Below the pieces are notes generated by a model that made no database searches, was not told the origin of the DNA, and was given only the letters and a program-made list of their open reading frames with translations. The position numbers were made by a program, and so were the translations under genes. Source: Isoetes taiwanensis (taxonomy: Eukaryota > Streptophyta > Lycopodiopsida > Isoetales > Isoetaceae). From it: a stretch of DNA of 64,000 nt. The stretch is taken from contig JAJEKV010000114.1 of the NCBI GenBank assembly GCA_021234155.1, positions 248,001 through 312,000 on the forward strand, in the 5' to 3' direction. Of the stretch, positions 1 through 59,906 are shown piece after piece; the stretch's first letter is position 1; each line of letters opens with the position of its first letter.

Positions 1-1532
1 GGATATAATCCAATTAGTATATCCATTCATCCTTTGTACCATTGAAACAACACGAAAGTAATAATCACCACGCATGGTGTCTTAGTATGATCATCACAAT
101 TTACAACTCCACCTTAAATAATCAATTTATAGGGCTCGCCCTTATTGAATCAACTTCAATCACTTATATGGCGCACTATTTTTGGATCGGTCATGTTTGT
201 TACATATTTTTAGTGCAAGCGCAGTAAATAGAACAGACAGCTATGGTTCGCTATGATTCGCAAACTCAGTAAATAGGACATATGTTTTTGTCAGCTATAA
301 TTAGTTGGCACCTACATACTTATTCTGATAACACAATCCAATCATAGTTCTAAGATGGTCGATGGTCTTATGCATATCAGTGACAAAGTATATTGCATCA
401 TTTACCATGGCAGTCCTATCTCTCTGCAAAATTCAAATGAAAATGCAACCAACTCACATCAAATAAGGCAATACAAAAAGACCATGAATCAGAAAACATC
501 AGTTAGATGCTACAGACGTTATATATGGCTTCAAAAAACATCTGGGTTTCAGAGGCATAACATAAAGAAAAGGCGAAATGGTCTGAGAATATTGAGGAAT
601 GGAAAGTCCAGGGAATTTTGCCAAATTCGTCAATACACAAATTTTAAACTATTGGCTGCTGTCAGAACTACGGAGAGAAAAATGGGCATAACAAATACCA
701 TGAATAATTTTCTTACAGCACAGCAGAGGATCTAACTGCTCCTAAAAATAATGTGCAAGTGCAGCGTGAGATCTTGCTTATAGTGCATGCTTCGTAATAC
801 TGTATATCCAAGTTATATGATAGCCAACAATTACTTATGACGTGACTTTAAAATGCACAACTTTGTATTCATCAATATTAAATAGGGATATATGGACCAC
901 CACAAATACCCAAACTTCTATATACTACATAACATGGCAGTGATTTTGAAACTGAAAATCAACAAAATGAAGATCTTAGAGTGTTGCCATGGAATGTTAA
1001 AAAAGGGATTTTGATCTTTGGCTCGAGCTTCTAAAATGCCAATGCATAAGCCTTGATGTTGAAACGTCACTCCATCTCTGAACATAGCAATCCACTGCCA
1101 GCTATAACTACCGAAAGCTAATTCATGCTCAAATATTACTACCTCTGTGCAACTGCTTTTGAAATCTTGCTTTCACTTCAAAGTCATCTGTCCTACCTAT
1201 TTTGAAAAGAACTTGATAATCAAATGAAGCAATCTAAAGCAAAATATTATGTACATGCTACAGATGGCTTCAAAAAACATATGGGGTTTCAGAGGCATAG
1301 CATAAAGAAAAGGCAAGGATAAGAAATGGTCTGAGAATATTGTAACAAATAAAATAGAACTCAAGAGATGGATCTATGAAAAGATATGCAGAACTGAGGC
1401 ATAATGTAAGTTTAAAATATGTAGAATGCAGTGACAAAATGAAGAAAAAAATAAATGTGTGGCGCTCCCAGTTTAATCAATGATTCCATGTGTTCTGTGT
1501 GACACAGAAACCCTTATGTTTTCTAGATTCAA

Positions 1533-1736
1533 ATGGGCATCAAGAAAGCAGATTTGATGAACCAGTTCTGTTGCCGTTGCTGTCGTTCATCCTTTAAAGA
1601 CCAAATGACCTTTAGGATTGTAAATCCACTAAAAGCATCGGATTTTGTTCCATCCCTTGCTAAAGCTTTAAAATCCTTGATCCGATTTCGAAAAAAATGG
1701 AGTTGTTTCCTTGTTCCAATTGATAATATAAGGTAG
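1533..1736 (+). CDS. Small Cys-rich reading frame conserved in both copies
   Basis: A 67-residue frame with a CCRCCRSSF cluster near residues 13-21 and a basic second half. Copy 2 has the same frame at 7416-7607, with CCRCYRSSF and a frameshift in an A-run near its end. It lies about 300 bp upstream of the transposase-like frame. It could be an N-terminal exon of that gene or an unrelated open frame preserved only because the two copies are young. I do not recognise it. Confidence 0.3.
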   Translation: MGIKKADLMNQFCCRCCRSSFKDQMTFRIVNPLKASDFVPSLAKALKSLIRFRKKWSCFLVPIDNIR

Positions 1737-2133
1737 CTTCAAAGAAACTTACTGCAAACGTCGGTAAAACCCTATCTGTGGCAATTTCGATGCTGGGGAA
1801 AAAGCCACAGAATTCCTGTAATGGAGTCGCAGGCAAAGGATTCCGCCATAGCTAGCGCACAACGATGGCTAACAGATCCTTGTAGAAAAAGGGACGGCTG
1901 TGGAATTTTATGCTTGAAGACCACGATACTTTTCTTACCATTGAATAGCTAGATCAAAACATGGCTGTCTAGATTAGGGCTCCATGGAAGACACGCATCA
2001 AAATTTTATAAAATTGTGGTCGAGCAGATGGTGAAGAATTTGAAGGAAACAATGCAAGAACATAAGTATGAGAGAAATTATGACATGCTTCATGCAAAAA
2101 AGTCCACCTTGATAATGGTAGCAGTAGGTACAA

Positions 2134-2454
2134 GGGTAAAAGCATGTTAGGGTGTCCCTTAAAAAGTATTATTTAGTGACCAAAAAAGTACCTAAAAAGG
2201 TACCCAGGACTGGGTACTGGGTACCTGTGTAATATCCCAATAAAAGGTACATTCTAGAACTTTTATATATATTTTGGTCTCCGATAGCATTATCTTTATC
2301 TTAAGTTTGAATATTAATGCGTCCTTGACTTGTATTTTGGACATTTGTACTAGTTTTAATGAAACTAAAAATGAGAAAGTACCCAGTTCTGAAGTACCTA
2401 GTGTATGTACTTTTGCAGGTTCCAAAAGTGGTACACCCTAACATGCTTTTACCC
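2134..2454. mobile_element. 321-bp MITE with 22-bp TIRs and ACAA target duplication
   Basis: It begins GGGTAAAAGCATGTTAGGG and ends with the exact reverse complement; the perfect inverted repeat is 22 bp. ACAA flanks it at 2130-2133 and 2455-2458, and copy 2 at 8014-8020 shows the empty site with one ACAA, so the ends are certain. There is no coding capacity; open frames inside are chance. A near-identical 321-bp sister sits at 61294-61614 with TAGA duplications. The TIR matches about 20 of 24 bases of the left end of the large transposon at 42148, which suggests that element's family mobilises it. Confidence 0.95.
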
Positions 2455-3069
2455 ACAAATGGTTCCAAGCTGATGAACCAAACGAAAGTAGCCAGATTAC
2501 TCAGCATCCCCAGAAAAACAATTTCAAATGCTTTTCAAAAAAGGGTTCAAGCTAACAAAGGGGATGGACCTTGGCCAATGTTCAGAAGGAGGAAATGGAT
2601 GGATAACATGTTAGATTACAATAGAGAAGCTGTTATCAAGTTTTGGGCAGAGAATACAAGAGTATCTCCATACAAGAAAGACGTGAGGAGATGTATATCA
2701 GAGACAGAAATAAAGATGGAACATCCAATTCATTTTCTTGAAGTCAGCCAAGCAAGTATTCATCCAATATTCTAGGTCCATTATATGTGGCAATTATGTG
2801 ATATTCACACAAATTCCTTGTAGTTGCAGTTCTACCTCAGATTCAAAGAGGAGAATTCTGGTATCAGAATTGCATCGTGACTTTTGAGAGGTTTGAAACC
2901 GAGTTTTATAAGGAGGATGCGTAATGGGCATACATGCTGTTATATCTACCAATTGAAGTATGAATACATCTTGCAAGGATTGAACAACATTAGGAAATCA
3001 GGTGCTCATGACAATTGCAACCGCCGTTGTGACATTTGTGGCCCTAACAAAGAATGTGCAGTCAAGAAG

Positions 3070-3177
3070 CAAATATTTAAGTGCACCAATGAATTATGGA
3101 GACGAGGATTATGGAGACGTCTGCAAATATTTAAGTGCACCAGTGAATTATGGAGACCAGTGTTTTGCCGCAAAGGT
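3070..3177 (+). repeat. In-frame 54-bp tandem duplication inside the transposase-like gene
   Basis: The segment beginning CAAATATTTAAGTGCACCA occurs at 3070 and again at 3124, 54 bp (18 codons) apart. The phrase QIFKCT.ELWR is therefore repeated in the protein. Copy 2 has the same duplication (about 11094 and 11148), so it predates the split of the two copies. Confidence 0.85.
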
Positions 3178-4259
3178 GATGACGGGGAGTGGTTTGATCA
3201 TAACTGTTTGATGTTGGCGTGTAAAAAATGTGGCTTGATAAAATCAAAAAATGTCCACAGGAAATGGATGGCACAGGTTCACTACTGTTTATTTGGAAGA
3301 CATTTGAAAAGCCACCTGTGGACCAAGATAGAGAATTCAGAAATCCAAGAAAAGGCTTTGAGGGAGAAACCTGTCTTAAGATTAGTACAGAAAGAAAGAA
3401 GTCCTAGAGATTTTCAAGAGGATATGAAGAAGGTAATATCAGATTTTATTCCACACAATTACACGACACATTGGCAGGCCAATCGGTTTAAGCAGTTTGT
3501 GTCATCTTTTCCAGAAGCTACAATTGTATCTGTTATTGACTTTGTAAACAATTATAGCATCAAGATCCAAAATGAGCCCCAGTCAATGCATTGGCACACA
3601 GACCAAGTTTCTATACTCGTTCACATAACATATATGACAAGAGTGCTAATATTCATGTTTCTGTGCATTTAGAGGAAGACTGTCCAAAGAAGAAAAAAAG
3701 AACACAAGATTAAAGCTAATCAGGAATAGACTCAACAATGGTAGGAAGATTATAAAAGAGATTCACTTTTACATTTTTGATGGTAAAGTGCATGACTCAT
3801 TATTTGTGGAGCACTGCCTACAAAAGCATGTTGCATGACTTAGGGAGCAGGGAATAGAGTATAAGAAGCATAGGGTATAGAGTGATGGCTGCTCATCACA
3901 ATTCAAGTCAGAAAAACCCTTTTTTTTCTTAGGAAGCTATTACACAATGAATGATAAGGCTGTAATGTGGAACTACTTTGTCACTACTGGTAAAGGTGAA
4001 CATGATGGTGTAGGTGCTGTTATCAAAAGGCTGCTAAGTAAAGAACAACTCAAACCCAGTGGTGAACAACTGAGGCATGCTAAAGATGTAATATTTCGCT
4101 GGAAGATATTTTTGTGAAATTGAACCTGCTGTTGTGGCAAACATGAAGGAATATGAAATTGAAACACTCAAGGGCACTAAGAAAATTCACTGTATCAGAC
4201 CTATCAACAGAAGTAGATCAAACAGGCTTGATCTTGAACCTTCTCCTACACCAATGAAC

Positions 4260-42143: not shown

Positions 42144-42147
42144 TAAA
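42144..42147. other. Left target-site duplication TAAA
   Basis: TAAA directly precedes the left terminal repeat and recurs at 59903-59906 directly after the right one. Confidence 0.85.
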
Positions 42148-42734
42148 GGGTAGATGCATGAAAGGGTGTCCAATATTATTTGTATAATGATGTAAAAATA
42201 TACACTAGCCTAAAGTGATTATAAGGTAAAATTTAAATTCTACATTAGTTGCCCACAATTAATGCAACTTGTCCACGTGAGAGGTTTTCGCCATTATTAT
42301 TGGCAACCCACAAATTTGACGCAATTTTGAACTCCCCCAAACGGATTGAAACTATTCCTAAACGGTTTCTTGAGGAATTGGAATCCTCTTTCTTCACGAC
42401 AGATTGATCTTTGCATATGGAAGAAATAATTTCGGATCATATGGAAGAAACAATTTCGGAAGCATCGAATTCTAATCCTTTTCTTGATGAGGACTAGTAT
42501 CATGCATTTCTCGGGACAGCCAAAGAAGATCGAAAAAAAAGGAATTGTGAGGGTCGGATATGGGACAAAAAAAAAACAGATTAGAAGGAAGGTGAATCAC
42601 CACATCGATCACATAGTAAAGCAAGTTTCCAAGTTGAATCCAAAACAACAAAATACATTTGTTTGAAAGATTGCTACAGATCATCATAGATTAAACTTCT
42701 TATTTGACCCCTCATTATTGGAAAGCCTAAAGAG

Positions 42735-45336
42735 GCTATTGTAAAGAGAAATTTATTGGAAAACCTTAAGGATGGCCTTCAAGAAGTGAAAGCTGCTAAT
42801 AGCAATGATAAACTTGCAGCCAAACACTCTGTTCTTGCCATGGTGGTTGGAAAGGAAGGAGAATTACAACAGACTTCATTGGCAGCCAAACTGCTCAAAT
42901 TACATCCTAGAAATATGAAGCTAGCAAAGAAAAGAAGAAAAAAAGATGTCATTGTGTGGAGCAAATTTATGGGCATTGGCAAAAATCGAAAGCCAATAAG
43001 AAATGCCATAGATCAAGCTATGAAGGACAGAGTTGCTCAATTCTGGTTAGATAATACAAAAGTGTCACCAAAAGTCAGAGATGTCATGAAGAAGAGGACT
43101 GAATCGATTCAATACATTGACATTACACAGGTATGGTAGTATTTTTAGTCTAAATAGAATTCTAGGTTAGGAATGTAAAAGTCAAGTAGATCTGTTTGCA
43201 TTCAAATCCAAAGAACATCAAATGTACTCTAGTTATGATCAAGCAGAAGTCATGTAGATCTATCCTACATTTCTTGTAGTGTAAATGCAAATGTTTTTTT
43301 CTCAGAAATAACTTTTAAGATGTGCTCAAGATGTAGGCATACGAATATGTAAAAAAGTGTAGGATTGTAGTAGATGTCAATGTTGATATGATTTACATTT
43401 AGTCCAACTTGAAAACAAATTACAAAATGTGTTATAGATGTAAGCATGAGAAAGTGATGTACAATAATGTAGGACTGTAGATGTCAAGAAAATATGTGAA
43501 TTCTTCCTATGGAGTACATTTTATGTAAGGATGTGAGGTTTTGGGAGATAATTTACATAGATGTGAAATTTTCAAAATGTGTGAATGATTCTAACCTTGT
43601 AATTTTGCAGGCTGAACTATACCAGAGCTTTGTTGATCAAAGATCCGTAAGTCAAGATCGGCATTAGACGCTTCAATACTTAAAACCCTCTTGCATACGA
43701 AAAGCTAAAGGAGAGAAATACATGTTGTTGTGTGAAGCACGAAAGCGATTTATTCAAGAAGGCATTCAATATGATGAGGTCAAAATTTCACGAGAATTGT
43801 TTTTGCAATTGCATTGTGTGTGCTTCGTAAGCTAATGCTGGAATTTGTCAAGCCAAGAAGAAAAAAATTTTGATAATGTGAGCACGCTTTGGAGAGCCAT
43901 GGTATGCCGAGGGGGCGCCGGTGAGGGAGTGGCACAAGCTAGCATGTATCAACTCAAAATGTGAAAGTTGTGGGAAAAATTAATTGAGTTGTGTCCTAGA
44001 GAAAAGGATGAAAGCGCTGAAGAATCAAGGATTGGCAAGTTTATAATTATGTAAATGAACCTTCAAGAAGGAACTTCCCGGCTGAAGTTAATTGACAAGA
44101 ATGGCAAAGGTAAAGGATATGTTGGACAAAGATGTTTGATCATATGTCCAAGTTTATATATCACAACTTTGTGGCACATTGGCAAAGCAAGCGCTTTAAG
44201 GAATCCATACGAACACTTCGTGGATGATTCAAGCTATCGCTTGTTGATTTCTCGAGAATTATACCTTGAAGCCATTTAATGAGATTCAAGCACAACATTG
44301 GTACAATGAACAAATTAGTATTTTGGTTCATATTACCATGTTCAAGGTAAATGGAAAATTGAGGAAATGTGTGCATTCGCTTATTTCGTGATGACAAGAT
44401 TCATGATACACACTTCGCACAAGATGCATTCAAGATGCACCTCAAATGGTTGCAAGAGAATGGTGCTGGCCATATGAAATATCATTTGGTTTGGTCCGAT
44501 GGGTGTGCAGCCCAATTTAAGTCAAGACGAAGCATTCTATCATGTAACAAGATATCATCAACAACATAAAATAAGAATGCAAAGTGGAATTTCTTTGGTT
44601 CGTGACATGGGAAAGGCACACACGATGGAGAAGGGGCAATTGATAAACCGTGGCTTGAAGCGAACAAAGAAAAAAAAGGATGGAAAGGTAGTAAAAAATG
44701 CAAAGAATCGCTTGTGAGGTCTTGAGGGAGAAAAAAATCAGATGTGGAGAGGGTATTTTGGGAGGTGATCGACATTGATCGATCCCAAAGATTTGATGTG
44801 CTTCCAAAAAAAGGGTGCAATCAATTCATTGCGTGTCGCCAATAGATGCAAATGACCCAACAAAGTTATTGTGCGTGCCTCTTTCATGTTTTTGCAAGGC
44901 ATGCATAAATTTTGATTGGCCTCGCTTTTTGTGAGGTCACACCATTGTGGCAAGTGGGAGTTGAGAAAAAACTAGAGCCTACTAATAGGATCGATCTTGG
45001 AGATGGTGAGAATGAGGTGGAGGGATTTATGGGCAAATGACATCGACAATATCGATGAGACACTTGCAGGTTGGTGATTATTTTGGAGCATTCACAGCCC
45101 GCATAATCATGAGGGGGTCCCTTATTATATCCTCCAATGCACGTATGAAACATGCACTTGAAGCGTATACTATGGATGACTATGGAAACTTATTTTATAG
45201 TGGTAATGAGGTTATTACGGGTAACTACTTTGAGCCGATACCGGCCGCCATCGGGTACAAGTTACTAAAAGGCAAGCAGTGTTTTGTCCATCCCGAAGTC
45301 GGTAATAGGGGTGAGATTTGCATTACAAACGCTTAA
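42735..45336 (+). pseudogene. Transposase-like gene of the large transposon, decayed
   Basis: First frame 42756-43139 (MENLKDGLQEVKAANSNDKL) has FWLDNTKVSPKVRDVMKKR, matching FWAENTRVSPYKKDVRR of the 2-4 kb copy. Further frames hold QISILVHITMF (about 44310), YHLVWSDGCAAQFKSR (about 44480; the SDG motif with its Trp intact), a region matching after a frameshift, and from 45037 a C-terminal domain (LQVGDYFGAF ... GNEVITGNYFEPI) equivalent to VGDNFAV ... HEVILSGHYY of copy 2. Many stops and shifts separate the parts, and the GKGxxDG motif is not intact. It would act at the TIRs of its own family if functional. Confidence 0.7.
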
Positions 45337-46814
45337 ACACAAGATAAAAGGTGTTGCTTATGCATATGAACTGCCTCAATACCGCACGAGATGCTACTAG
45401 GAAGTCTCGCCGAGATTGTAGATGTTATGTGAACTCGCTTTTACATCGATTTACATAGTTAGATATTTCTCAATTTTTTTAGTAGTCCGCCATCGATCAG
45501 AGTCTTATGTAATGTAATTAAGTGCATGCAACTCTATAATTCTCAGAATTAAGAGATGTTGACTGTTGTACACCCTTAATATTTTTGGAATTGGCTCTAG
45601 GGCAGAAGAAAGAGTTATTATTTAAAAAGAGTTGCTTGATTGTTGTACAAGGCAAACCCATAGTGAGGACATATTTATATGCAAATATGAAGATGCTGCA
45701 AAAGACAATAGTGTATTTATATATTGATATTCAATAGAAAAAAGATGTTCACATTGATTGTAGATTGTTATGAATATTACACAACTCTTGCATGCATGTA
45801 CATATCATCCCATGGACCTAGCCTTAGCCGTGGACCTGCATCATAAGAATACAACATGAAGGATAGAAGATATAAATTGCATATGCACTTATGAAAATAC
45901 TCAAATACCTTGCTTTATGAAAACATGTCAAGGCGATGAAAGTGTGTCCAATAATGCATCTACAACAGCAACCTCTTCATCATGTAATCCATGAAATGCC
46001 TGAGTCCGAGGATGAGAGGTTGCCTCCGGGTTTCCTCGTAACCATCACACTCTCAAATACAAGTGTTGGGGATTTTAGCAAGCACCCATGTCATGAAGGC
46101 TTGTTGATTTAGCAAGCATGAAGACATGTTGGGGATTTAGCAAGCAAGAGAGTCTTGTAGATGGAAGTATGGTCAATTAGAGCAACCAACATCTACTTCT
46201 ATCAATAACACAATTGGGTGCTTCATGATCTATCTTCGATTGAAGCCGACTAAAAGGTTGGCTTGGTTTGATAGCATAAAATGATGGAGAATAAGTGTAA
46301 ATGCAATTTTTGTGGCTTTCAATGACAACACATTGACAAGAAGAAAAAAAAAGTGCAAGCTTGGGACAAGAACATCAACTTGATATATTCTGATAGGTGC
46401 AAGTCAAATGTTAAGAACTAAATACATACAACATTTTGATCCCTTTGTGAATCTCTTTTTATAGTTTAAGCATTGCAGGTGCAATTACATTCAAATTGAA
46501 CCGAGTATTGAGATAAGTGTATGGCGAGCCAAATTTATAACCCGCTACATGGTAGCAGCATTATCAAACAAGGTAGCAAGTTATAGCCTTTAACATGGCA
46601 ACAAATCTATCTCTATAACAATCTATCAAATACAATGGCAAAGATCCAAGTAAGATTCAACTACCACTGGTCCCTTTGAATAGCATCTCCATCTTCACAA
46701 GCTTAAGTAGAGCATCCGCCAAAAAACTTCTCGCCGTGAGAGAGCGATAACGATGTGAAATCCAGCTAGATGTAACCTATGAAATAAGCAATAAATAATA
46801 CACCAATGTTCGAA
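45337..46814. other. Region between the convergent genes of the large transposon
   Basis: No coding evidence. A short phrase, TTGGGGATTT(T)AGCAAGCA, is repeated near 46067 and 46128. Confidence 0.5.
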
Positions 46815-47270
46815 TCAGTTCCCTACATGAAGCGTACGCAAGTTGAGAAAAGAACTTACTTTCAATTCCCTTCCAGAGACAAGACAGTTGACAAATTTAT
46901 GCATGAAGCCCATCACATACAACCCGCAAGACGTCAAGTCGGGCTGTTGAGGTACTTCGAGATGGTCAATCCCCTTCACATTGTTTCTCCTCACAAAATC
47001 CATGCCATTGAGGTTTGACTCATTGATATAGTCAATATTTGTGTATGCAATCGCATATGTAAAAGCATTCATGTAAAATGGAAAAGAATAATTCGAAAGA
47101 AAAGAAGGTTGAAACATACCCTCTAATTGCCTTTTCGCTTATTCGGATAGCCTTTCAGTGCTCTTAAGATGTAAATTGATGGTGCATGGAGAATTTTATC
47201 ATTACCTTTCTCTCATGAAAGCAATATGGCCAAAGACAAAGTGCTCATTCTCAAGTACGTAGAAGAATAT
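46815..47270 (-). pseudogene. Ulp1/C48-type cysteine protease C-terminal region
   Basis: The minus strand at about 47270-47200 reads ENEHFVFGHIAF, similar to the catalytic-His strand, followed by GT (GTAATG), an apparent intron donor. From 47117 an open frame contains VPQQPDLTSCGLYVMGFM, the Gln-x-x-Asp-x-x-x-Cys-Gly signature with the active Cys of Ulp1/SENP proteases. Ulp1-family enzymes cleave SUMO-like modifiers. Similar protease domains are known as passengers in plant MULE/CACTA elements and in KDZ transposons. The N-terminal part of the protein would come from the minus-strand exons upstream. Functional status unknown. Confidence 0.7.
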
Positions 47271-48638
47271 AATCGCACTTTAGCCATAACTAGCCCTTTA
47301 GTTCCCCTGCTTTACTATGTCTATAATAGATCTTGACGTGTCAATTCTTCTCTTATTTCCCGTAGCCTCCTTTGAAGCGTAAATAGTTATAAGATGGGTA
47401 AAATAAATCTTACTTTTCCATTCCAAAGGCAAAGTATCATACAGTACCTAGTAACAAGAGAATAAGTTACATAAAGAATACAGTAACTTAATTACATAAT
47501 TACATACTCTATTCTAAAGCAAAAGGCCAACCTTATTTTCTAAAACCTACTTACCCTTTTATCCCCTATCCCCGCACATTTAAACACTATCAAAACCCCG
47601 CTTCTACCCCTCTCAGCCTAGCAACACCTAAGGCAAGACAGGTTAGCTTAGCAGCCTATTCTATCTCTAACCTCTCAAGAAGCTAACCTATTCTAGCCTA
47701 CAAGGCAAAAGCACAAAGATATTACCTCGCCATAGAGTTCCACAAGGCGACTAGTCATTTTTGATTTGGTTGTACACAAATCTTGCACGCCAATATCCAC
47801 CACTTTCATTGAGGATCGAGGACTGTTATTGAATGGCACAAAAGGAGTGTAGGAAGACAACTTCTTCGTCACATCTCTACAATGAAGGATCAAAGTGTAA
47901 GTGTCAAATAATGCATGATCAATAGCATAAATATATTAATACCTTGACCAATTGTCGCTTTCACCGATTTATGCCTATAAAAAGAAGTATGAGTTATTAA
48001 TCCCTGCCAAGAATATAGCTAGAAACCATTCAACTAGCATGTATGCTTTATTAATATGCTATAAGTGCATGTCTAGCAGTTTATGCAACACACCTTTTAG
48101 TAGATGTTGCCTCCTTTCTATCTCGAGGATTTTTTTAGTCTTTGGGGTAGCATCCTCCGCCTCCATAAACTTTTGTGTGGCCTTGGCTACAGCCTCCAAG
48201 GCCCCTTCTACATCAAGACTCTTATCTTCATCTGCTATTGATTCAAATTACAACCTTGAATATAAGTTGTTGCAAAGCTGAGAGTACTAAGAAACACGCA
48301 TTTCGCTGCCATAGAATCTTCAATAGGTACTTTTTTCAACTTCAGAAAAAGATTAGGAAAAATTTTGTCATCATTCTTGCAAGCTAATTCAGCTTTGATC
48401 TTGAAAGTAACAACCTCAAATTTAAAAAATTATCACACGGTAAAAAAGATAATGAATGTGATCACTCACCGATGGGCTCTTTTCCTTAACAATGAAGCCA
48501 ACTTTCGGTTTCCACATCCGATATCCGCTGAGTTATGCTCTCACCGCAATCACACATTTTCCCAATTAGTTTATCTAAAATACAAATGGAGCTTATAGTC
48601 AAACTTATAATACAAGAACTTACCTAGTATGGTTTTTG
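47271..48638. other. Intron-like stretch of the minus-strand gene region
   Basis: Only short frames in all registers. It could contain further small exons of the protease gene; none is convincing. Confidence 0.35.
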
Positions 48639-48845
48639 TCATCTCCTCATGTTGTCCTCAATACGTTTACGCTTTCTCATTGTGATACGACGCTGTTTTC
48701 GAGATGACATGGATGTGGATGGACTCAAGAGACAAATGGCGCTATCTTTAGTTGATTTTTCAGCTCTTGAGACCTCTGAAAATGATAACTTCAACCCTTT
48801 TCCAGCAAAAAGATACTCTTTACACCGCATTATGACAAAGGGCAT
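48639..48845 (-). CDS. Basic exon-like segment of the minus-strand gene
   Basis: Frame containing SSRKQRRITMRKRKRIEDN, a strongly basic, nuclear-localisation-like run. It lies between the RING/coiled-coil frames and the Ulp1 region on the same strand. Its membership of that gene is inferred from order and strand only. Confidence 0.35.
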   Translation of the reverse strand: MPFVIMRCKEYLFAGKGLKLSFSEVSRAEKSTKDSAICLLSPSTSMSSRKQRRITMRKRKRIEDNMRR

Positions 48846-49405
48846 GAACGTAAGTCACTTCTCATTTTATCCTATATGTTGTTTACATTACCGCCATCAG
48901 TAGCTTCGTGTTTCTTGATGCTACCAAGATCCGCAATTGAGATAGTAAATGCAATAAGAAACAATGAGAAATGTAAATTAGAGATAATCATAACAATAAT
49001 CAGAAAACAGATGTAAACATACATAATCATAGCATTAATCGTGAAATGATGTAAGACAACCGTGAATCAAATGCAATCAAAAGCAATGTAAGTAAATTTG
49101 AGAAATGCAAGAAATGTAAGGTAGATGTACCTAAAAAGAAGAAAGCAAAATATCATCCACAAATGTAAAGTGGAAACTTAGAAAGTACATTCATATGCAT
49201 TATAATATGTCCTAATGTTATATGTAAATGTAACAAGCAAATTCATAAGGTATTTATGACAGAAGATATGTACAAAATATGAAATGAATGTGTTCATGGG
49301 GTTACATCAAATTACACCGACCTTCAAATACATTTACTTTAAGGACAACAAAGATAAATCCATGTAAAAGCTGAATGCCAATTTGGACTTTTACCTAACA
49401 AGCAA
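48846..49405. other. AT-rich intron-like stretch
   Basis: Long AT-rich sequence with many ATGTAAAT-like words and no coding evidence. Confidence 0.4.
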
Positions 49406-49822
49406 CTAGATGTCTAGATAGTAATGAAAATCACACATGTTCAAATCAAAGCAGTTAAGTACAAAGAGAATAGTAAAACAAATGTAATTAGTGAAGATAA
49501 CATAATTAAAAATACCTTGTTGAGTAGAGAGTCCCATGATTTGACGCAGATCTTCAGGCCACAAACACTCATGTATACACTGGTTTGTTGTGGAAACCTT
49601 GTATGATAGACAAAATAGACAATAGGGATGTCCACAACATGGTAAAACCAGCAGTATAGAGTCGAGGCACTCATTGCAATTGCTACATGTATTCACATGG
49701 CCGGTTAATGCCCTTGATTCTGATGCAAGTAGAGGAGTAGGATGCAAGGAAATTACATCAGATTTTTCTACATATAATATCATTTCCTTTATTCTACTCT
49801 CACTAGCATCATTTGCCTCCAA
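49406..49822 (-). CDS. RING-like Cys/His domain segment of the minus-strand gene
   Basis: A frame with NTCSNCNECLDSILLVLPCC, then GHPYCLFCL and, later, CIHEC. This is the C..C, C-x-H-x-x-C-x-x-C arrangement of RING fingers, though the spacing is irregular. It directly follows the coiled-coil frame on the same strand. RING domains usually act as ubiquitin or SUMO ligases; placed beside a Ulp1-like protease this hints at a modifier-related function, which is inference. Confidence 0.5.
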   Translation of the reverse strand: MEANDASESRIKEMILYVEKSDVISLHPTPLLASESRALTGHVNTCSNCNECLDSILLVLPCCGHPYCLFCLSYKVSTTNQCIHECLWPEDLRQIMGLSTQQGIFNYVIFTNYICFTILFVLNCFDLNMCDFHYYLDI

Positions 49823-50138
49823 ATCCTCGCTGATTTTCTTGGATGGCAGCCTCTAATGCATGCAATTCATTTGTCAAACTCTCAATTGGCATCTTTAAGC
49901 CATTCATTTCTTCAATGAAACTAGATTTTTCCTCTTCAAAGTGGGAGGCCAAGGCCATTTGCAAATCAGTTGGCTGCCCTGTCGAGCGTAAAGTCATCAG
50001 TTTGTTTAACTGAGTGTTGATCTGTGCATCCTTGCTTTGCACAAACCTATTCAAGGTATTTCTCTCACCTTCTAACTTGCATAAATCAGATTCTAATGTT
50101 TTCCTTTTCTCTTTCATATCCTTCATTTTGCTCATCAA
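49809..50138 (-). CDS. Coiled-coil segment of the minus-strand gene
   Basis: 109 codons, rich in Lys/Glu/Leu with heptad-like spacing (MKDMKEKRKTLESDLCKLEG and SLTNELHALEAAIQEN). It overlaps the RING-like frame by 14 bases, so a splice or frameshift must join them if they are one protein. Confidence 0.5.
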   Translation of the reverse strand: MMSKMKDMKEKRKTLESDLCKLEGERNTLNRFVQSKDAQINTQLNKLMTLRSTGQPTDLQMALASHFEEEKSSFIEEMNGLKMPIESLTNELHALEAAIQENQRGFGGK

Positions 50139-50248
50139 GGTAGCAAAGATCCATTGCTTCTTTCAATCAACTTCTTCATTGCATCTATCTGCCGCCCAAT
50201 CGACTTGCACCTTAGTTGTTTTACATTGATGATCTCAAGGTAACAACA

Positions 50249-50590
50249 TCACCAAATCGAATCCTTTTGTTCCTTCTTTGCATGTACAAAGGCACTCTCT
50301 TTCACCTCTTCCCAATCAATTTTGATGCCTTTATAGTGGAGTGCATAAGCTCGAGCAAAGTATAGAGGAATGTGATGGTTTGCAATGTCTTTCCCCGCTA
50401 AAAACATGCTCATAGATTGTATAAAAATCCCGTGATCCAAATTGGCTTGATCCTGTTGTCTTGGTAACCTCTCACTGCTGGTGCTTCAGAACCCCAGACT
50501 TCTTGGACCACTTGCAAAAGCCCTGGGTAAATAGTATCAAAGTTATTGGTTCTAAGCTGCTTAATGCTAACCTTATCAAACTCGGGCTGC
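50249..50590 (-). CDS. N-terminal coding segment of the minus-strand gene, cut by CACTA
   Basis: Two overlapping frames read PEFDKVSIKQLRTNNFDTIY ... VQEVWGSEAPAVRGYQD, then after a shift LDHGIFIQSMSMFLAGKDIA ... IPLYFARAYALHYKGIKIDW. The region starts exactly at the CACTA insertion site. On the minus strand the joint reads TTGCAG|CCCGAG when the CACTA is removed, like a 3' splice site. It resembles the N-terminal portion of transposon-encoded Ulp1 proteins only loosely. Confidence 0.45.
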
Positions 50591-50607
50591 ACACTACAAG
50601 AGAATGA

Positions 50608-51100
50608 CTACTAAGAGTCAGTTAAATCGTCAGAGGGTCGAAAACTCTATATGAGATGTCTATCTACCGAATATAGTGACGAATATCATGACGAAAAAAA
50701 CTGACGTTTATCTCTGACTAAATAGCTGACTAACATGCTGACTAATTACATATTGACGATTTATTTGACGAATAATTTGACTAAAATCATGACTATTAAA
50801 GTGTTGATTGTAATGACTATTACATTGACTAACATGCTGACGTTTTTTTTCTAACGAAATGGCTGACTATCAATTTGACTAAAATTCATAACTAATAGTC
50901 TGACTATAAGGGTGACTAAAAATATTACTAATATGTTGACTAATACACTGACTTATTGTTTGACGAGATGTCTAACTAAAAATTTGACTAAAATTACTGA
51001 CTAATAGTTAAACTAAGCAAGTGACTAAGAATCTGACTAATATATTGACTAATATTGTGACTACTTGAATGACTTATATAGTGACTAACATTATATACTC
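50608..51100 (+). repeat. CACTA subterminal repeats, left end
   Basis: Dozens of TGACTAA, TGACGAA and TGACTAT words spaced about 10-20 bp apart, all readable on the plus strand. In CACTA elements such motifs bind the TNPA-type protein. Confidence 0.85.
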
Positions 51101-51480
51101 ATTCGAGAACATTCGGTCATATATGATATCAATTCTCCAATATCATGTCTCCTTTATCCAATATCATGTTTACCACTTATAATTATCCCAAGTGTGTTTT
51201 CTAGTGTGAGAACATGTTCAACAACTCCATTGTAAGGAATTTTTTTTTTTCTTCTATCAATGTAACTTTAAACATGAAAACAATATAGGAATATAAAAAT
51301 AATTCGAGCACTAGGAAATACATGCTTAAAAACAAAAAGTAAATTGTGATAATGTGATAGAACACAGAGTTTGAAATATGATCTCTAGCTAGTCTAAAAT
51401 CATATGAAATCCTCATCCAAGATATCATCTTGTATGTCATTCCATTCATCATCGCCTAGTTGTAAAAGCAAAATTAGTCA

Positions 51481-54086
51481 TTATTTTGGCATTTGAAGGT
51501 CAACGTCTTCCTCCTCTTCAATATAATCTTCTGCCATTGGGGAGTGCATTGGTGATCTCAATTCTTCATTGGTGGTTTGTCTTTGAGCTTCATAATCTTC
51601 TAGACTTTGTGTCTCCAAAAATTCCAATTCTTGCTCATGCTCTATATCTTCCTCACATTCCACAAATTCCAATTCTTGGCTATGCTCTAAATCTTCCTCA
51701 TGTTCCTCCTCTTCTTCCTCAAGGGTTATATTAGGAACGTCGGTTTATGATGTTGGTTCTGTAGGGATTACGATCCACCATGTACTGTTTTGAGGGTTGA
51801 CATGGAAAAATACTTGTTGAACTTGTTGTGGATACACAAACGGTTCACTTACATCTACTAATACATGCGTGGAATCAACTTCAAAAAAACCAGATGGATG
51901 TGGCCGCACTGTTTGATTTCTTCCGCGGTATAGAGGCTTGAACCATTTCGCTTTTAGAATGGTCTGTCGAAATGAACGAAAATCCACATCAATAATATCA
52001 GTAATAACTCCGACATATTCAAGCTCTCCATCAACAGGATTATCATCTCTAGCGCTTGCTCGACTTTTTTGGTCAAATGAGGCAATTATTCCAGAATCAC
52101 AAGTGACACGAGCTTTGTCAATGCTATCAATTCGAAAATGTTGACCATAGGCCCACATAGAATTATGGAACCTAGCCTGCAAATTGAATAAAAACTCAAG
52201 TGTCAATACATATTATGAATGCAATAACAATAACAATAACAATAACAATAACAATAACAATAACAATAACAATAACAATAACAATAGCAATAACAAATTC
52301 AGACTTACTGATCTGTTACACCCAAGAGCAATGTTGAGATCATCTTCTTGTATTTTTTCTCCATTGCCTTCGGCCTCCCAAAGCTTTTCAGATAGCCACC
52401 AAGAGGGGGGATTCTCCGGCATGGGCCTTAGTTCTGGAGGATATTGTACTCTCCTATGACGTCCTCGACGATTCCTTGCAGCATATGCTTTTCTATCACT
52501 ATCTCTTTGTGCCTTTTCAACTTTATATAGTTCCACCCACCTAGTGAGACCATCTGCATTGTTCAATACGAATTTGTTGATGCCTTCAAACATCTCGTCA
52601 CTTAACCTTCGTTGCTTACCCTGACCTTGTAAAATTTCACCTTCTAACCAATCAGGAGCCTCCTTCTTCCAAATCTTTGGTGCATTTGGATCTATTGATG
52701 TTGTGGCATCTGTTAAGAAAAATAATGTCTCTTGAACAAGGTGTCCTTCTGCCATACATCCCTCAGGCCTAGCCATCTGGCGCACAAATCCTTTTAAGAC
52801 CTTCATATATCTCTCCAAAAAGAACATCCATCTAGAGGGGTTTGGACCCACGAGCAAAATCTCTTGTGGCAAATGCACCAACAAGTGTACCTGATGATCA
52901 CATTTAGTATGTGTAATTGCCAATGTGTGACTTATTCAACTAGCTACGTACCTGAAGGTCAAAAAAGCTAGTTGGAAATAAGTGTTCTAACTGGCATAAT
53001 ATCTCTGCAATCTCTATCTCCATGGTGGGAATATCCGCAACTACAATCTCCTTAGAAGACACCCACCTAGAAAAGCTAGCGAGTCTATATATGACCTTCC
53101 GAATAGAAGGCGTGAGGCAATTCTCTAAGGCACACCAAACACCATCAACACAGTCGAGTGTCCAGATGGGACCTTCACGTGCTCCATTATGTACAAACCC
53201 CTTCCAGCTTCTGGTATTTCTAAAGAAGGTGCAATCATGTACTTGTGACCCCAATATATAAACTCTTTCAACATTGGAGGCAGTTCCCCTTCCCAACAGC
53301 CTAGGGATGATCGAACAAATGGAACAATAGAGGCTCTAAGGTGAGGGGGGAGTTGTTCAGCCATGTCGTCTTTTGTTTCACATGCATGAACAAGGCTATG
53401 CAAGCTTTTCTTGAAATGGTTCTTAAGTTTTGTAGCCACTGTACTTCCCCTCGTGCGACCTCTCTCAACTTCCTGAGTCTCTTTTGAACTAGAACTAGAA
53501 CTTCTAGAATACCAGGGTAGCGGACTCGATGATCTAGATGACCTGGGGCTATCTGATGTCTCAGCAAGTTCTGGATTTTTGCGAAGCATGTCCAAATACT
53601 ATGACAAGTCGTATATAGTAAAAGAGGATTAGAATATTGTATGAAATAAATAATAGAAATGCGTAATACATACTTTTACCTCATCTGCTTCTTGTCGTGC
53701 ATTTAACTCAAGGTCGGACAGAGGTGGAGCATTTGGCATCAAACCGTACTTCATTTTGTGATCTCGTCTCGTGGTATACATTCTTCTGCTAGTGCCTTTG
53801 CATTGTTTGCACCAACAGTTGTCGTACTGCCTAGCAAGTCGCTCCAATGGATCATCTCGAAGCCAAGTTTTTGTTGCTTGTCTTTTTCTTGATGCGGAAG
53901 ATGAAGAAGTTTCATTTCTATAGGCAAAAGATAAATACCCAAGTGATCAAATGGCTGCCCAAACCAAAAATGAGAGAGAAAGAGTTAGAGAGATCAAAAC
54001 CTTAATGCTCGAAGCTCATCAATAGACGGCGTTGAAGATTTATTGGTCGACGAAGTGGAGCCACTGGGATGCTCGGAGGTGCTCAT
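51481..54086 (-). pseudogene. CACTA TNP2-like gene with DUF4218 and DUF4216, catalytic domain missing
   Basis: Start at 54086 (MSTSEHPSGSTSSTNKSS). An intron joins ...DELRAL to RNETSSSSASRKRQATKTW, then a Cys-rich CWCKQCKG motif (about 53820). From 53595 come basic and Ser-rich regions, then MEIEIAEILCQLEHLFP and, across an intron near 52930, VHLLVHLPQEILL and RWMFFLERYMKVLKGFVR with ARPEGCMAEGH: the DUF4218 signature. A further intron (52181-52306, containing a microsatellite) leads to the DUF4216-like segment FHNSMWAYGQHFRID ... ELEYVGVITDIIDVDF. An in-frame TAA at 51745 interrupts the end; in-frame coding continues to 51481 with an acidic, duplicated ELEFVECEEDIEHEQELEF tail. No Transposase_21 DDE domain is seen. 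Confidence 0.85.
52222..52296. repeat. (CAATAA)n microsatellite in a CACTA intron
   Basis: About twelve CAATAA hexamers with one substitution, lying between donor GTAAGT (minus strand, about 52306) and acceptor TTTGCAG (about 52181). The long poly-Leu and poly-Asn frames here are artefacts. Confidence 0.95.
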
Positions 54087-54758
54087 AGCGGAGTTGCTAG
54101 GTTGCTCGGAGGTGCCCAGATGCATTCATTGCAGAGGCACTGGGGTGCTCATGACGGAGTCATTGAATGTGCGCAGATATAAGCCCTGCAAAAAACCCAA
54201 TAGTACATAACCCACTAACACACACATAACAATAAAAAAATACAAGCATTTTAACAATGAACACACATATATAACAATAATAAAATACAAGCATTTTAAT
54301 ATTGGACACGTGTTTAGCAACTAGGTATTTTGTTGATCAACAGCTGACGTTACGCAATACATAGGTGGCATGGCGCAATCGCCAGGACAATTTGCAAAGC
54401 AAGCATGCCAGGCCAATTACAAATTCCTAGTGCAATTTTCTTTACACTAGAATGGCACAACTTTGGTACAACTATGGGGAACATGTAATGCTAGTTAGCC
54501 TTATGGGGAACATCTTGTGAACATATTTATGCAAAAGCTTGGCTTGATGCATAAAACCAGTGTGTTATATTTGTCAAACCCATTAGAATAACATATAAGT
54601 ACTTCAATAGTTGTAGTGATAAAACTGTAATAGAATGGATAGTGACGAATTTGGTGTCTAATAAAACGTCAGATAAAAAAGGGGATAAAAAATAAAAAAG
54701 GGGATAAAAAAAGTGACGTTCTTTAATCTTCATTTTCTCTTACCTAAAATAATCCGCC
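54087..54758. promoter_or_regulatory. Divergent promoter region of the CACTA genes
   Basis: It separates the minus-strand start (54086) from the plus-strand start (54759). No coding. It holds TGACGAATTTGG and GTGACGTT words near 54642 and 54713, related to the subterminal motif, and a duplicated GGGGATAAAAAA phrase near 54680-54710. The promoter role is inferred from geometry only. Confidence 0.4.
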
Positions 54759-57700
54759 ATGGAAATTCACCAGGCGTTTGCTTTCTTGATGGAGATCGAG
54801 GCTACGATCGAGATTAAGCTTGAGAGAGAGACAGCGCCCAATCTCGAACAAGAATACTTGAGCAAGGTTAAGCTAGAAAGAGAAAGAGGAGACGTAATAA
54901 GTAAGCATTTTTAACCCTAAGTTATTTTTTTTTTCTCGCCTTCCCTTCCAAATAGCGCCTTCCATCTCTTTCATTGAAGAAATACCCAATGAATAAGAGG
55001 TCTCAAGGATTCGTATGGATGCATTCGATCTAGATCCGAGCTTCAGTTCTTCAAGATTGCTTGTTCTAAGTGTTGTATTATCTGCTTCCACCTAACACTA
55101 TGAAAAGACCCGTTCCTTAACCGGCATCAACGATGGAGTCAATTTAGTATTATATATCTTTAATGGCGCAGGCTTTTGGAGATATGGAAATGAGCTTACC
55201 TAGTGCCCCGACCGACCTCTGGAAAATTCTAGTGGACCATATGGGAATTCTTGAAAGGTGTGTTGCAAACTTCAATAGCATGCCATTCACATACAAATAC
55301 AATTCCGTAAGCTTATGAGATATGGATGTAGCTCCATTTAGACAGAGAAATAACCCTGAGATTTGAACTGCAGAATTAATCTGCCACATACCAAAACCCA
55401 ATCAGGTAAACTATCTAACTCTAATTTAAATAAAAATACACACTTACAAATAGGCCAATGGGCTTTGAAAGTTGAGATTTTCGGGAGATGATAAGGAGAA
55501 GCATAAGGAATACAACCCGAAAGGCAAAGAATGGTAAGTAAAGAGAGAGTCGAGGAAAAGGCACTCGGCCGGCGATCTTGTTTAGCTGGTGTCTTATCTG
55601 CATATATTCTGCTAGAAGAATATGGCGCATCCTTTGTTTCTGATAGCATGTTAAGAAAACCATCGAGGTGCAATGTTTGAAGAGAGCACATGAGGCTATG
55701 CTTGTAGAAGTCTTCTGCAAAGTTAACTATCTAGTAACAGTAAAACTGCTGGAGGCTTTTACTTACAAGATTAAGTCATTTCCTTCAAGATTATATGCAC
55801 TTATCTTGTCCACTTATCCTTCCAGATGCACTTATCTTGTCCACTTATTTGTTCAGCAGACTTTTTCTTAATCTAACTATTGGCTTATGTTTTTTAGTGG
55901 CTCCAAGGGAGAGCTCAAAAAACAGGGGGGAAACCTCACGAACAAGACATGAGGATAGTGAGGAAGAGGATTCTATGGACATCACTAGAATCGTTGGAGA
56001 AATGGAGCATTCAGACTTGATTAAATTTAAGGCAGCCCCCTTGACAAGCGGCTTGCACATATTGGTACTCCGTCATGAGACCTCTAATGGAAGGCGAGGT
56101 TCAGCTTGTCCAAAACCGAGAAGATCAAGGTATTTGGTGAACCACTTCATGTTTTAAAGATGCACTTGCTAACCTGTCCTTTCATTTGTTGTCGCGTTGA
56201 GAAATCCAATGAAGTGTAAGATCCATTAATGCGCCAGCAAGTGAGAATGAAGAAGAAGATGAAAAAACAGATGATAGCGCAAGTGATGAGGGGGACGAGG
56301 AGCCAAATGAAGATTATGAAGTTACTTTTCGTCGTCTTCCTAAAGAGGAAAAGGTAGATGCTTATTTGCATTTTGTGAATGCATTGTTGGACAGTATTAT
56401 TATATTTTATTGTGCATTATTATTAATAACTATTCGTTGTATATTATAGGTGACTATGGTGCAAGGAGGGGAGATACATCTAGATGAGAATGGACAGACA
56501 TGGAAGACAGCCCTCGGCCATGCGGTGAAAGTATTTTGCACAGAGATTGATAAAGATTGGAAGAAGGTGGATGAGATCTCCAAAAAGAGACTAGTGAGAC
56601 ACATGGAGAAGCGTTTTGGTAAAGGTTTATTTGCTTCTGATATACTAAAGAGGGCAGCTCGAATATTCAATCATTGGAAGTAAGCTACTATTGTATTTTA
56701 TCATGTTTTATTTTTTTCTTCATTATTTAACATTGTTGTCATGTTGTGTAGGGATTGGTTGCGTAGGAGTAATAAGAAAATAGCCCCAAACCACGTTAAA
56801 GATGCTGTGTGGGACAGATTTCTTGCAGATAAAAAGAAGCCACGTCACCAACAGAAAAAGGCAGCGGCAGCAAGAAAACCTAATGGCGAAAGAATAGGAC
56901 GGCGGGGACATGCTGGAATCGCTGCGGATTATGTAAGTACTATGTTTCTTTGCAAATACATTGACTGAATACCATGTTTCTTTGCAAATAACATGCTTCA
57001 TTCTTCATTTACTAGCTTCTGCTGTCCTCTCCTAAAGCTTTTGTCTTTATATAATCCAAAATGTTTTAGTAATGGAAGCTCGAGATCCTCGCATAAAGGC
57101 TACTGTAAATGTGCAAAGAACTCACCGTCGGCTTCCATGCAAGTGGATTCTCTTCAAGGACAGCCCAAGAAAATTGGCCAAACTCAAAAGAGACCATGAG
57201 ATCCCATATGTGTGAGCTTAGGTTGCCTATCTCGTGTCACAAGATGCATTCCATATGCCTTACTTATGTGTTCAAGCATCATCACACCCCCTCTCCTTTC
57301 AAGCCAATCTCTAAATAATGAGTCTCTTCGACCGCCTATCTCTGCTTTACACCGGTCGTATGAACTTGAGCAGAAGAGTTATTATTCAAAAAAATATCTG
57401 GCCCAAGATCATCTGCTTGAGGTTCTCCACTCAGCTGGCAGAATTCTGCATACTCCATAGATCTTCCTTTTTTATTCATAAATGGTTTCACAACAAATGG
57501 TGCTGGTTTATAGCATGAGTCTGCTACAAGGTAAGGCTGTATTTCCATATTCTTAACCTGTACTTTTGGCCATGCAAGAACTTCCCGTGCACAAAGCTTT
57601 TGCCACAGTGGACTGTAACTAAAGTCTCAGTTCTTTGGATCTGTCTTCTAACATGTTAACTGGCAGAATTTCAAGTTGGCTTGGAAATCTTACTTTACTT

Positions 57701-58670
57701 AATCTCATTGCATCAGACAATGGCTAATATCTCCCCTCGGAATTTAGATGAGAAGAACGATATGTTAACAAAGATTGGATCAAAGATTTTTCTTGACTAA
57801 CTCTATTTTTTTATCTTATGTAGTTCCGAGATTGGGGTGCTTACCCTTCTGCAACAACTATGGCAGCGATAAAGAAGAAGAGATCATACAGGGCATATCG
57901 AGAATCTCTAATTGCCGAAGGGAGAATTCCTGGAAATGTAAGCTTTTGTATTCGTTTTGTTTAGTTCTAATTTCTGATTTTTTTTGTTCTTTCTGATCAA
58001 ATGTGAGAGCTCAAAATTTCTGATTTTTTTGTTCTTTTGTAGTTTGAGGCGTTGCATTTCTTAGGGAAGAAGGGCGAGAGGAAGAATAAGCAGCGAAGAA
58101 GAAAACAATTGAAGGTAATTTCTACTTTGTAGCATTCTGATATATTCGCTCTCTCATCTTAAACAACTTCTTTTTAGAAGCAAACACCAAGGCGCCGAAG
58201 ATCGAAGGGAAGAAGAAGCACTAGCTCATGTGGATCTAGAAAGGCGCCAGCCCATGTCGTTGAGGAAGGCGAGAATGCCCATGTAATTGATGGAGGTGAG
58301 CAAGAAGTGGAAGGAGTAGAGGAGATTAGAGCGAAGATGTGGAAGATGATGTGGGATTAAGGTGGAGTTAAATTGTCGCGTAGATGCTCCCGATTTGCCA
58401 CATGAAGATGTCGGCGACATTGATGCCTTCTACGACGCAGTTATGGAGAAGGGATTGGAGAGTGCAAGGAGTATGGAAGAGATGATTATGAAGAAGAGAA
58501 ATGATGTGGAGGAGGGCAGCAAGAGAAGTGATAATGCATCCACATCGAGACAAAAAGGGAAGAAGAGCAAGACTCGAGGACTTAGCAGAAATTTGGGTTC
58601 TGAATTTGTAGATGGGACTATTGCACGGAACATTGCGCAATATAAGTCACTTCGAAAGACAAGAGGCTGA
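54759..58670 (+). pseudogene. CACTA second gene, TNPA/Transposase_24-like, multi-exon
   Basis: A likely first exon at 54759 (MEIHQAFAFLMEIEATIEIK). Later exons: about 55898-56130 (APRESSKNRGETSRTRHEDS, acidic); 56450-56681 (VQGGEIHLDENGQTWKTALG ... IDKDWKKVDEISKKRLVRHM ... RIFNHWK); 56752-56935 (DWLRRSNKKIAPNHVKDAVW ... GRRGHAGIAADY); 57825-57940 (FRDWGAYPSATTMAAIKKKR); 58043-58115; 58178 onward with basic and acidic runs to TGA at 58668-58670. The order 'Trp-rich linker, FNHWK, DWLR, GRRGHAG' is reminiscent of Transposase_24 (Ptta/En/Spm). Exon borders have GT/AG. A frame break near 58347 suggests decay. Confidence 0.6.
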
Positions 58671-58939
58671 CATGAGTACTTGCAAAATGTGAACTCTTCA
58701 AGTTTTGATGTGTTTCTAACACTTTGCTCTTACTATCTTTAATGACTACTGATTTGTATTCAAGTCTTAAGTTTTGACTACTTGTAATGACTACTTATTT
58801 GTAATCAAGTCTTTATCTTTACATTTTGTCTTTTATTCAATTGTATCTGTTGTTCACAAATGTCAATCGCATTTTATTCGATTTTATCTGTTGTAACAAA
58901 TATTAATTGCTGTTATCTCTATTGTAACGAATGTTAATA

Positions 58940-59433
58940 GAATTATATCTTGACTGTTATTCTGACTAATAACTAATGTCGTGGCCAAATAACCTGACTG
59001 ATTGTCTGACTATTGCCTGACCAACTGTCTGACTAATAATTGACCCATATTCTAACTATTTCTATGACGAATTTTTTGACTAAGGATTTGACTAAGTATC
59101 TGACTAATATCATGACTAAATATCTAAGTAATACATTGACTAATTACGTACCTAATTAGCTGACTAATTAGCTATTTAATAAACTGACTAAGTAACTGAC
59201 TAACAAAATAAGATTCTGTCTATTACATTGACTAGTCATCTGACTAAATTGTTGACTAAGAAACTGACTAAACATATAACTAATAACATGACTTTTTACT
59301 TTCGACTAATCTTGACTAATATTCGACTAATATTCGTCGGATAAAACTCGTCACTTCATTAAAATTGAGAATATGGTTTGGGCACTTGTCTATTTTACAA
59401 AGGCTCTCTGACTAATGTTATGACGTTTAACCA
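58940..59433 (+). repeat. CACTA subterminal repeats, right end
   Basis: The same TGACTAA-type words as the left end, again mainly on the plus strand rather than inverted. They run up to the right TIR at 59434. Confidence 0.85.
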
Positions 59434-59452
59434 TCATTCTCTTGTAGTGGCA

Positions 59453-59590
59453 ATGGAGGTCTTTCGCCCACAAGAGTCTTGATTTCCTCATTGCCGGCTT
59501 AGGAGACCTCGCCATGGGCTTCAAGGGCTTATTTCTTGGTGATTTCCGGGGGCGCCCTTGTTGCCGGGCTTCCGTCATGATGCTCCTCAA
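59453..59590 (-). CDS. AT-hook-like first exon of the minus-strand gene of the large transposon
   Basis: Frame starting MTEARQQGRPRKSPRNKPLK; GRPRK is the core of an AT-hook, which binds the minor groove of AT-rich DNA. It lies just outside the CACTA insertion, in line with the coding segments at 50590 and below, but in a different frame. It is therefore linked to them either by splicing or across a frameshift. About 310 bp lie between it and the right TIR. Confidence 0.45.
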
Positions 59591-59878
59591 AAAGCTTCAA
59601 AAATGGCCTCGGGGTTTTGCTCTATCCGGCTATGGCAAGGAAGGTACAGAGTTTTGGGGATAGAGATGTGCTTTCTGTTTGGCTATGGCGGAAGTACAAA
59701 GTCTTGGGGAATGAGCGGGGAGGAGCTAAACCTCGAAAGGGATTTCCCTACGTTCGAATTTTGAAACCCACCAAACCAATTAAGACATTCTAAAAATTAA
59801 TGATAATATAATAAATATGGTAGTAGGGATATTGTTTACATTTTGCATTTGTAAATGTATAAAAGTGTCCCTTTTTTT

Positions 59879-59906
59879 GCCACCCCTTTCATGCTTCTAC
59901 CCTAAA
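59879..59906. other. Right TIR of the large transposon and TAAA target duplication
   Basis: 59879-59902 is the inverted counterpart of 42148-42171 (one-base length difference and a few substitutions). TAAA at 59903-59906 repeats 42144-42147. Confidence 0.85.

Follow-up and report, generated by a model that had tools for sequence, protein, structure and literature searches.

DNA transposons of the Sola superfamily are described as encoding a DDD transposase, generating a 4-bp target-site duplication (TSD) and measuring 2-9 kb, some longer, with terminal inverted repeats (TIRs) of 11-1124 bp (PMC10741241). Their ends are reported to be very variable, and they are uncommon in flowering plants (PMC10741241) and known from moss and ferns (PMC10741241, PMC9033089, PMC6786969, PMC6890710). 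A different kind of plant element, the Vandal group of Mutator-like elements (MULEs), carries Ulp1-bearing VANC genes (KIU) that have been linked to loss of methylation at related copies, and the precise function of Ulp1 in MULEs is called unknown in that account (PMC13317346). Here we describe an element at positions 42148-59902 of a 64,000-nucleotide stretch of the genome of the quillwort Isoetes taiwanensis, a lycophyte (contig JAJEKV010000114.1, positions 248,001 to 312,000, forward strand; the whole stretch is called the window). The element resembles Sola in its 4-bp TSD, apparent DDD transposase, TIRs, size and seed-free plant host (PMC10741241). Its transposase looks like one of an established, little-studied kind. 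By comparison with published descriptions of Sola, we conclude, with a probability of about 0.68, that the element belongs, in decayed form, to a large Sola-type cut-and-paste group.

The preliminary description of this stretch, made from the letters alone, had reported matching TIRs at 42148-42171 and 59879-59902 with TAAA on both sides, and all of these are present:

42144..42147, no strand: left target-site duplication (TAAA), equal to 59903-59906 and exactly 4 bp long
42148..42171, plus strand: left terminal inverted repeat, GGGTAGATGCATGAAAGGGTG..., with copies elsewhere starting at the same base
42148..59902, plus strand: whole element including a nested CACTA element, an interval of 17.75 kb, or 8,897 bp after subtracting the CACTA
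59879..59902, minus strand: right terminal inverted repeat, the inverted match of the left end; a right-end search finds partners
59903..59906, no strand: right target-site duplication (TAAA), pairing with the left TAAA, exact 4 bp

The size of about 8.9 kb given in that description is therefore right once the nested CACTA is subtracted. We searched the whole genome (1,658,258,908 bases) with the first 253 bases of the element and obtained 41 matches, its own place counted, among which 10 further copies with 98-99% identity spanned query base 1 or 2 to 253. Because other copies start from the first or second query base, and the right end also finds partners, the TIRs are the true ends of the element. 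An exact 4-bp TSD was present in 11 of 11 full-length copies, namely the window's own and ten others (L001-L010) that were selected by having both ends paired at a distance of 7-10 kb; the ten comprise six members of the window's family (7.2-8.8 kb) and four of a sister family (9.0-9.6 kb). Among nine more end pairs judged by eye, five combined both ends with a 4-bp duplication that matched, one (C1086) had both ends, mutated, without a TSD match, and three lacked a recognisable end. Elements were 7.0-9.6 kb long after subtraction of nested insertions, with TIRs of about 21-26 bp. Pooling of 29 exact TSDs gave 66% A+T and no firm target consensus, T being commonest at position 1 (14/29) and position 4 (15/29).

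A TIR pattern, GGGTARAAGCATGMWAGGGTG, had 736 and 759 exact matches on the two strands of the genome (1,495 in all), and the reversed control had none. Because other copies carry these ends and the pattern has 1,495 matches against a control of 0, a chance match of TIRs and TSDs around unrelated repeats is refuted; we regard it as having a negligible probability and rejected it on the end searches, the pattern count and the exact 4-bp TSDs. The preliminary description had named, as the outcome that would undo it, that no other copy be bounded by these ends; the genome search that it proposed instead returned many, and other full-length copies share them. The window element is confirmed as a genuine DNA transposon whose ends are common to other copies.

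Among the 100 GGGTARAAGCATGMWAGGGTG places listed, we observed pairs 9.13-9.30 kb apart as well as pairs 252-265 bp apart, the latter being miniature inverted-repeat transposable elements (MITEs). At least eight pairs of about 9.1-9.3 kb occurred among these places, of which seven were retrieved together with five MITEs. Exact 4-bp TSDs flanked six of the seven long pairs, which form a sister GGGTAAAA group, and four of the five MITEs (L054-L058, 252-265 bp, with GGGTAAAAGCATGAAAGGGTG ends). A DNA pattern for the transposase motif HGKGx[HYCR]DG had 1407 and 1367 genome matches (2,774), compared with one for its control. In the quillwort genome the element belongs to a group that is very large and varied.

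The plus strand of the element carries the transposase gene:

42417..43130, plus strand: transposase exon 1, assigned by homology; start inferred; donor CACAG^GTATGG, the same in relatives
43608..45420, plus strand: transposase exon 2, frameshifted and interrupted, holding the putative DDD core; located by tblastn with an open-frame relative (element 1461-3273)
44492..44503, plus strand: WSDG motif with the presumed second catalytic Asp; SDG is invariant in alignment A3
44606..44626, plus strand: HGKGTHD motif with the presumed third catalytic Asp; HGKG and this Asp are invariant in A3

GT-AG splice signals joining exons 1 and 2 lie at the same place in several relatives. The window's transposase is decayed by frameshifts and stops, as the preliminary description had noted: the plus strand reads WSDGCAAQFKSR from 44492, a stop precedes HGKG, and frameshifts lie nearby. 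We aligned 7, 21 and 23 (A3) transposase sequences, all from the I. taiwanensis genome. In A3, the Asp of DF[AS][ED]N[YF] was found in 19/19 rows covering that site, and the Asp residues of SDG and of HGKGx[HY]DG were kept in 23/23 rows, with few other core residues invariant. The three residues are spaced 84 and 41 residues apart in the relative L030, and we infer that the core is of the DDD type.

An AlphaFold2 model of the core (predicted local distance difference test score, pLDDT, 78.1; predicted template modelling score, pTM, 0.82) had the order b-b-b-a-b-a-b-a; of the three Asp, the first lies on b1, the second after b4 and the third ahead of the helix that follows b5. Foldseek returned a single match below 0.001 for this model, a retroviral integrase. 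The top VIA-align neighbours were Argonaute-type proteins (Z 8.8), retroviral integrases (Z 8.6) and Mos1 (Z 8.3; 157 aligned residues, root-mean-square deviation 3.6), Z scores of 8-9 being modest and only borderline informative. The model suggests a transposase core with an RNase H-like fold, in line with the fold check that the preliminary description had proposed.

Relatives were also sought outside Isoetes. The catalytic-motif DNA pattern, which matches 34 of 92 loci, found no viral contig and one contig in the GTDB set, JAAEPJ010000558.1, filed as a bacterial metagenome-assembled genome and encoding a 705-aa single open reading frame (ORF; L093). A profile built from Isoetes sequences only matched L093 at E=4.6e-26, as against 0.29 for the lowest E value among 1,000 shuffles, and the transposase family is therefore not confined to the quillwort. 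The contig may be stray DNA of a eukaryote in a bacterial bin; L093 showed no clear TIR pair and sits on a very long branch in the transposase tree. Pattern scans of IMG/VR gave 64 matches with A1 and 3 with L093, and those of the GTDB contigs gave 61 with A1, none of them a relative; each such scan relies on two to six short patterns and cannot show absence, the A1 scan having missed L093. Similar proteins may also exist in animal genomes.

A rival reading is that a Ginger, KDZ or Mutator-type element captured an Ulp1 domain, since both Ginger1 (PMC2836005) and MULEs (PMC13317346) are known to carry Ulp1. The preliminary description had stated that Ulp1 rides in several plant and KDZ-type transposons, which holds for MULEs and Ginger1; for KDZ, the papers listed in a literature search did not show it. 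Ginger1 shares with our element a 4-bp TSD and an Ulp1 domain (Ulp1 or OTU in Ginger1), but its Ulp1 is fused to the transposase, and it targets CCGG/CCGT, ends in TGTNR and has an integrase of the Gypsy type (PMC2836005), whereas here the TSDs vary and the ends are GGGT. Kyakuja has a 7-bp TSD and CA..TG ends without TIRs (PMC12730594), in contrast to the 4-bp TSD and TIRs found here, and MULE TSDs are 7-12 bp (PMC10741241). The Pfam models for integrase, KDZ (PF18758) and MULE transposases had no match to the transposase at E<=1; a genome search with PF18758 was likewise without a match, though its controls were also silent. We rejected the Ginger1, KDZ and MULE identities because TSD length, ends or transposase domain disagree, and consider such an origin highly improbable.

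A Sola-type identity agrees with the 4-bp TSD, with the DDD core suggested by alignment and model, and with element size and TIR length. The element is also like Sola2-Fanzor of dictyostelids in its 4-bp TSD, in its large transposase, in short TIRs (12-21 bp in Sola2-Fanzor) and in having a second protein that varies between elements sharing one transposase end (PMC3627910); the partner there is Fanzor (TnpB-like), and the TSD is AT-rich, AWWT in one dictyostelid (PMC3627910). Since TSD, DDD core and size fit Sola, the undescribed superfamily of non-seed plants proposed in the preliminary description is not supported: the features match Sola (PMC10741241), and the homologue L093 comes from outside this plant.

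Several points weigh against the Sola assignment. The comparison with Sola1, Sola2 and Sola3 was one of published descriptions. The transposase had no convincing match in Pfam, PHROGs, NCBIfam or PDB sequences, the DDD triad is read solely from conservation and from position in the alignment and model, the fold scores are modest as given above, and the model of the whole of exon 2 was poor (pLDDT 49.8). Three of five distant 10-kb pieces (L095-L097, from L094-L098) lacked a convincing TIR pair, which was present in L094 and L098; these two are no independent evidence for TSD length because an exact 4-bp TSD was their selection criterion. In another set of 10-kb pieces (L029-L033), only L031 had both ends (TSD TATA); the left end was present in L029 and L030, the right one in L032, and neither in L033. 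L095-L097 hold transposase, NIF and RING-like pieces, their ends not being found within 10 kb.

These elements could instead form a separate DDE/D superfamily near but outside Sola, whose defining features would be GGGT...ACCC ends, a TSD of 4 bp, a transposase split by an intron and a RING-like partner. The lack of a transposase model in any library searched (Pfam, PHROGs, NCBIfam) argues for this, as does the GGGT start in L094 and L098, whose transposases are only about 36-45% identical; the reported variability of Sola ends (PMC10741241) can be set on the same side, and the GGGT...ACCC ends and absence of a firm target consensus are unmatched to any Sola group, as compared by description. 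However, in the coarse features tested the elements do not differ from Sola (PMC10741241), and a homologue beyond the quillwort (L093) means that a separate superfamily would be no plant invention. We therefore consider a separate superfamily unlikely, and retain the Sola-type assignment in what follows.

The minus strand of the element holds a partner region, in which RING and Ulp1 may belong to one gene or to two:

46839..47441, minus strand: Ulp1/Peptidase_C48-like domain with a readable QQPDLTSCGLYV Cys motif (PF02902, tblastn and a family hidden Markov model, HMM)
49409..50591, minus strand: C-terminal part of a coiled-coil/RING-like protein (family HMM; ORF 49406-49852)
59450..59596, minus strand: N-terminal basic part of the coiled-coil/RING-like protein, with QQGRPRKSPR, severed by the CACTA (family HMM pieces and translation)

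The Ulp1 domain announced in the preliminary description was matched by PF02902 in the window ORF (E=2.9e-4; 21.2 bits, cut-off 20.7) and in the copy L003 (E=1.1e-7). Of the presumed His/Cys/Asp triad, the Ulp1 pieces of relatives retain the His (NEHF) and the Cys and carry Asn at the usual Asp site. The coiled coil also stood, together with a RING-like Cys/His pattern and a basic protein toward the right end, and no Pfam RING model matched. The AT-hook did not hold up: a string of this kind, QQGRPRKSPRNKP (GRP), is readable in the window, and the other readable copies have TSPRKSPRNKP or GRISP[RV]KSPR in its place. The GRPRK string is not a conserved AT-hook, since GRP occurs only in the window among nine readable copies.

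We applied family HMMs to six-frame translations of 21 elements or pieces, 12 of them from the window's family and its close sister. The RING/coiled-coil protein was detected in 18 of the 21, weakly in L094 (2e-3). Ulp1 was found without NIF in the window, L001-L010 and L033; NIF and Ulp1 pieces occurred together in L030, L031 and L032, those of Ulp1 in L032 being short and decayed; NIF without Ulp1 was found in L095-L098, and neither in L094 and L029. Overall, distant lineages carry the NIF/FCP1-like domain, nearer ones NIF with Ulp1, and the window's family Ulp1 by itself. The Ulp1 piece of L030 (9389-9956) may fall outside the element because the right end is unseen. The right end of L029 is also unseen, and this piece seems interrupted by other sequence. 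At about 4000-9600 of L029, where the partner region was expected, there are other long ORFs, perhaps of a different insertion. The Pfam NIF model (PF03031) matched L031 at 5.9e-18, L030 falling just under the cut-off. The DxD site of NIF reads DxN, DxN, ExQ and ExE in the four readable pieces, and because the usual DxD is altered in all four, the phosphatase is probably inactive.

A tree of the transposases showed that the partner-domain states need three changes, the minimum possible. The clade of L030-L034 and the window's family had support of 100/99. Two A3 rows (L073, L005) were left out of the tree, L094 was assigned to no group, and L034 stands for L031 (97% identical), the partner genes being read from L031 alone. 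On the simplest reading, with a midpoint root, NIF would be ancestral, Ulp1 gained at the base of the L030-L034/window clade, and NIF lost in the window's clade. We also estimated ratios of nonsynonymous to synonymous substitution (dN/dS) between the two families on hand-chosen open pieces, six of seven comparisons giving a value and L030 versus L033 being saturated. The ratio was 0.11-0.16 for the transposase and 0.19-0.22 for the RING protein; the Ulp1 pieces gave 0.23 and 0.41, the latter with a wide interval (0.15-0.88). It follows that the partner proteins were maintained as proteins during the divergence of the two families, and the RING-like protein is under purifying selection.

The partner domains could also be passive captures of host genes (transduplication) without a role in transposition, which would be compatible with a Sola transposase. 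That NIF and Ulp1 appear and vanish between lineages, and that NIF lacks its usual DxD pair in 4/4 pieces with that region open, would be expected from such captures. However, the dN/dS of the RING protein and of one Ulp1 piece (0.23), and the occurrence of the RING protein in most elements or pieces, speak against them, the second Ulp1 piece (0.41, with an upper bound of 0.88) being weak in this respect. Passive capture is in our judgement possible and clearly the less probable account.

What seems to be new here is a partner region in which a retained coiled-coil/RING-like protein stands beside an exchangeable NIF/Ulp1 domain. We found no description of such a region in Sola among the listed titles and abstract openings of the open-licensed literature, and RING-like, Ulp1 and NIF partners are unmentioned in the consulted passages of the Sola descriptions (PMC10741241, PMC9033089, PMC6786969, PMC6890710). 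Vandal/KIU (Kaonashi) MULEs are alike in being plant DNA transposons with an Ulp1-bearing accessory protein, and differ in belonging to a non-TIR MULE group with Ulp1 inside VANC (PMC13317346) and in the longer TSDs of MULEs (PMC10741241). By analogy with them, the partner region may be an accessory factor, perhaps an anti-silencing or transposition helper.

In the cycle that we propose, the intron-containing transposase would bind the terminal repeats (GGGT...ACCC) and cut the element ends with its RNase H-like DDD core. It would then insert the element at target cuts staggered by 4 bp, from which the 4-bp duplication would arise. From the opposite strand would come the helper region, a coiled-coil/RING-like protein with a lineage-exchanged NIF, NIF plus Ulp1, or Ulp1. 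This region would most probably help the element to transpose or to be expressed in its host, perhaps by working against silencing as the Ulp1-bearing VANC/KIU genes may do. Two observations argue against such a retained helper: the RING protein was undetected by the family HMM in L029, L030 and L098, and the NIF domain cannot be essential, because it is missing from the window's own family.

An abundant and diverse Sola-like group is thus found in a lycophyte, whereas Sola is uncommon in flowering plants (PMC10741241). Within a single transposase lineage, partner domains are exchanged and the RING protein is mostly kept, which offers a comparative handle on why unrelated transposons acquire Ulp1. 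A bolder version, which we hold to be doubtful, is that of an undescribed superfamily or deep branch beside Sola, with thousands of copies in a lycophyte, a RING-like partner kept, and a SUMO-protease- or phosphatase-type domain repeatedly traded; if true, such elements would form a natural series in which the function of Ulp1 in transposons could be studied.

The insertion that splits the coiled-coil/RING-like gene of the window is a second transposon:

50592..59449, minus strand: nested CACTA/EnSpm element of 8,858 bp with CACTA ends and TSD GCA at 50589-50591 and 59450-59452

It has the CACTA ends, the 3-bp TSD and the plant EnSpm domains of such elements, with Pfam matches to DUF4218 (E=5.2e-18) and DUF4216 (E=4e-6; 27.7 bits, under the cut-off of 30.6). 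Repeats of 12 bp of the TGACTAA type lie close to both of its ends.

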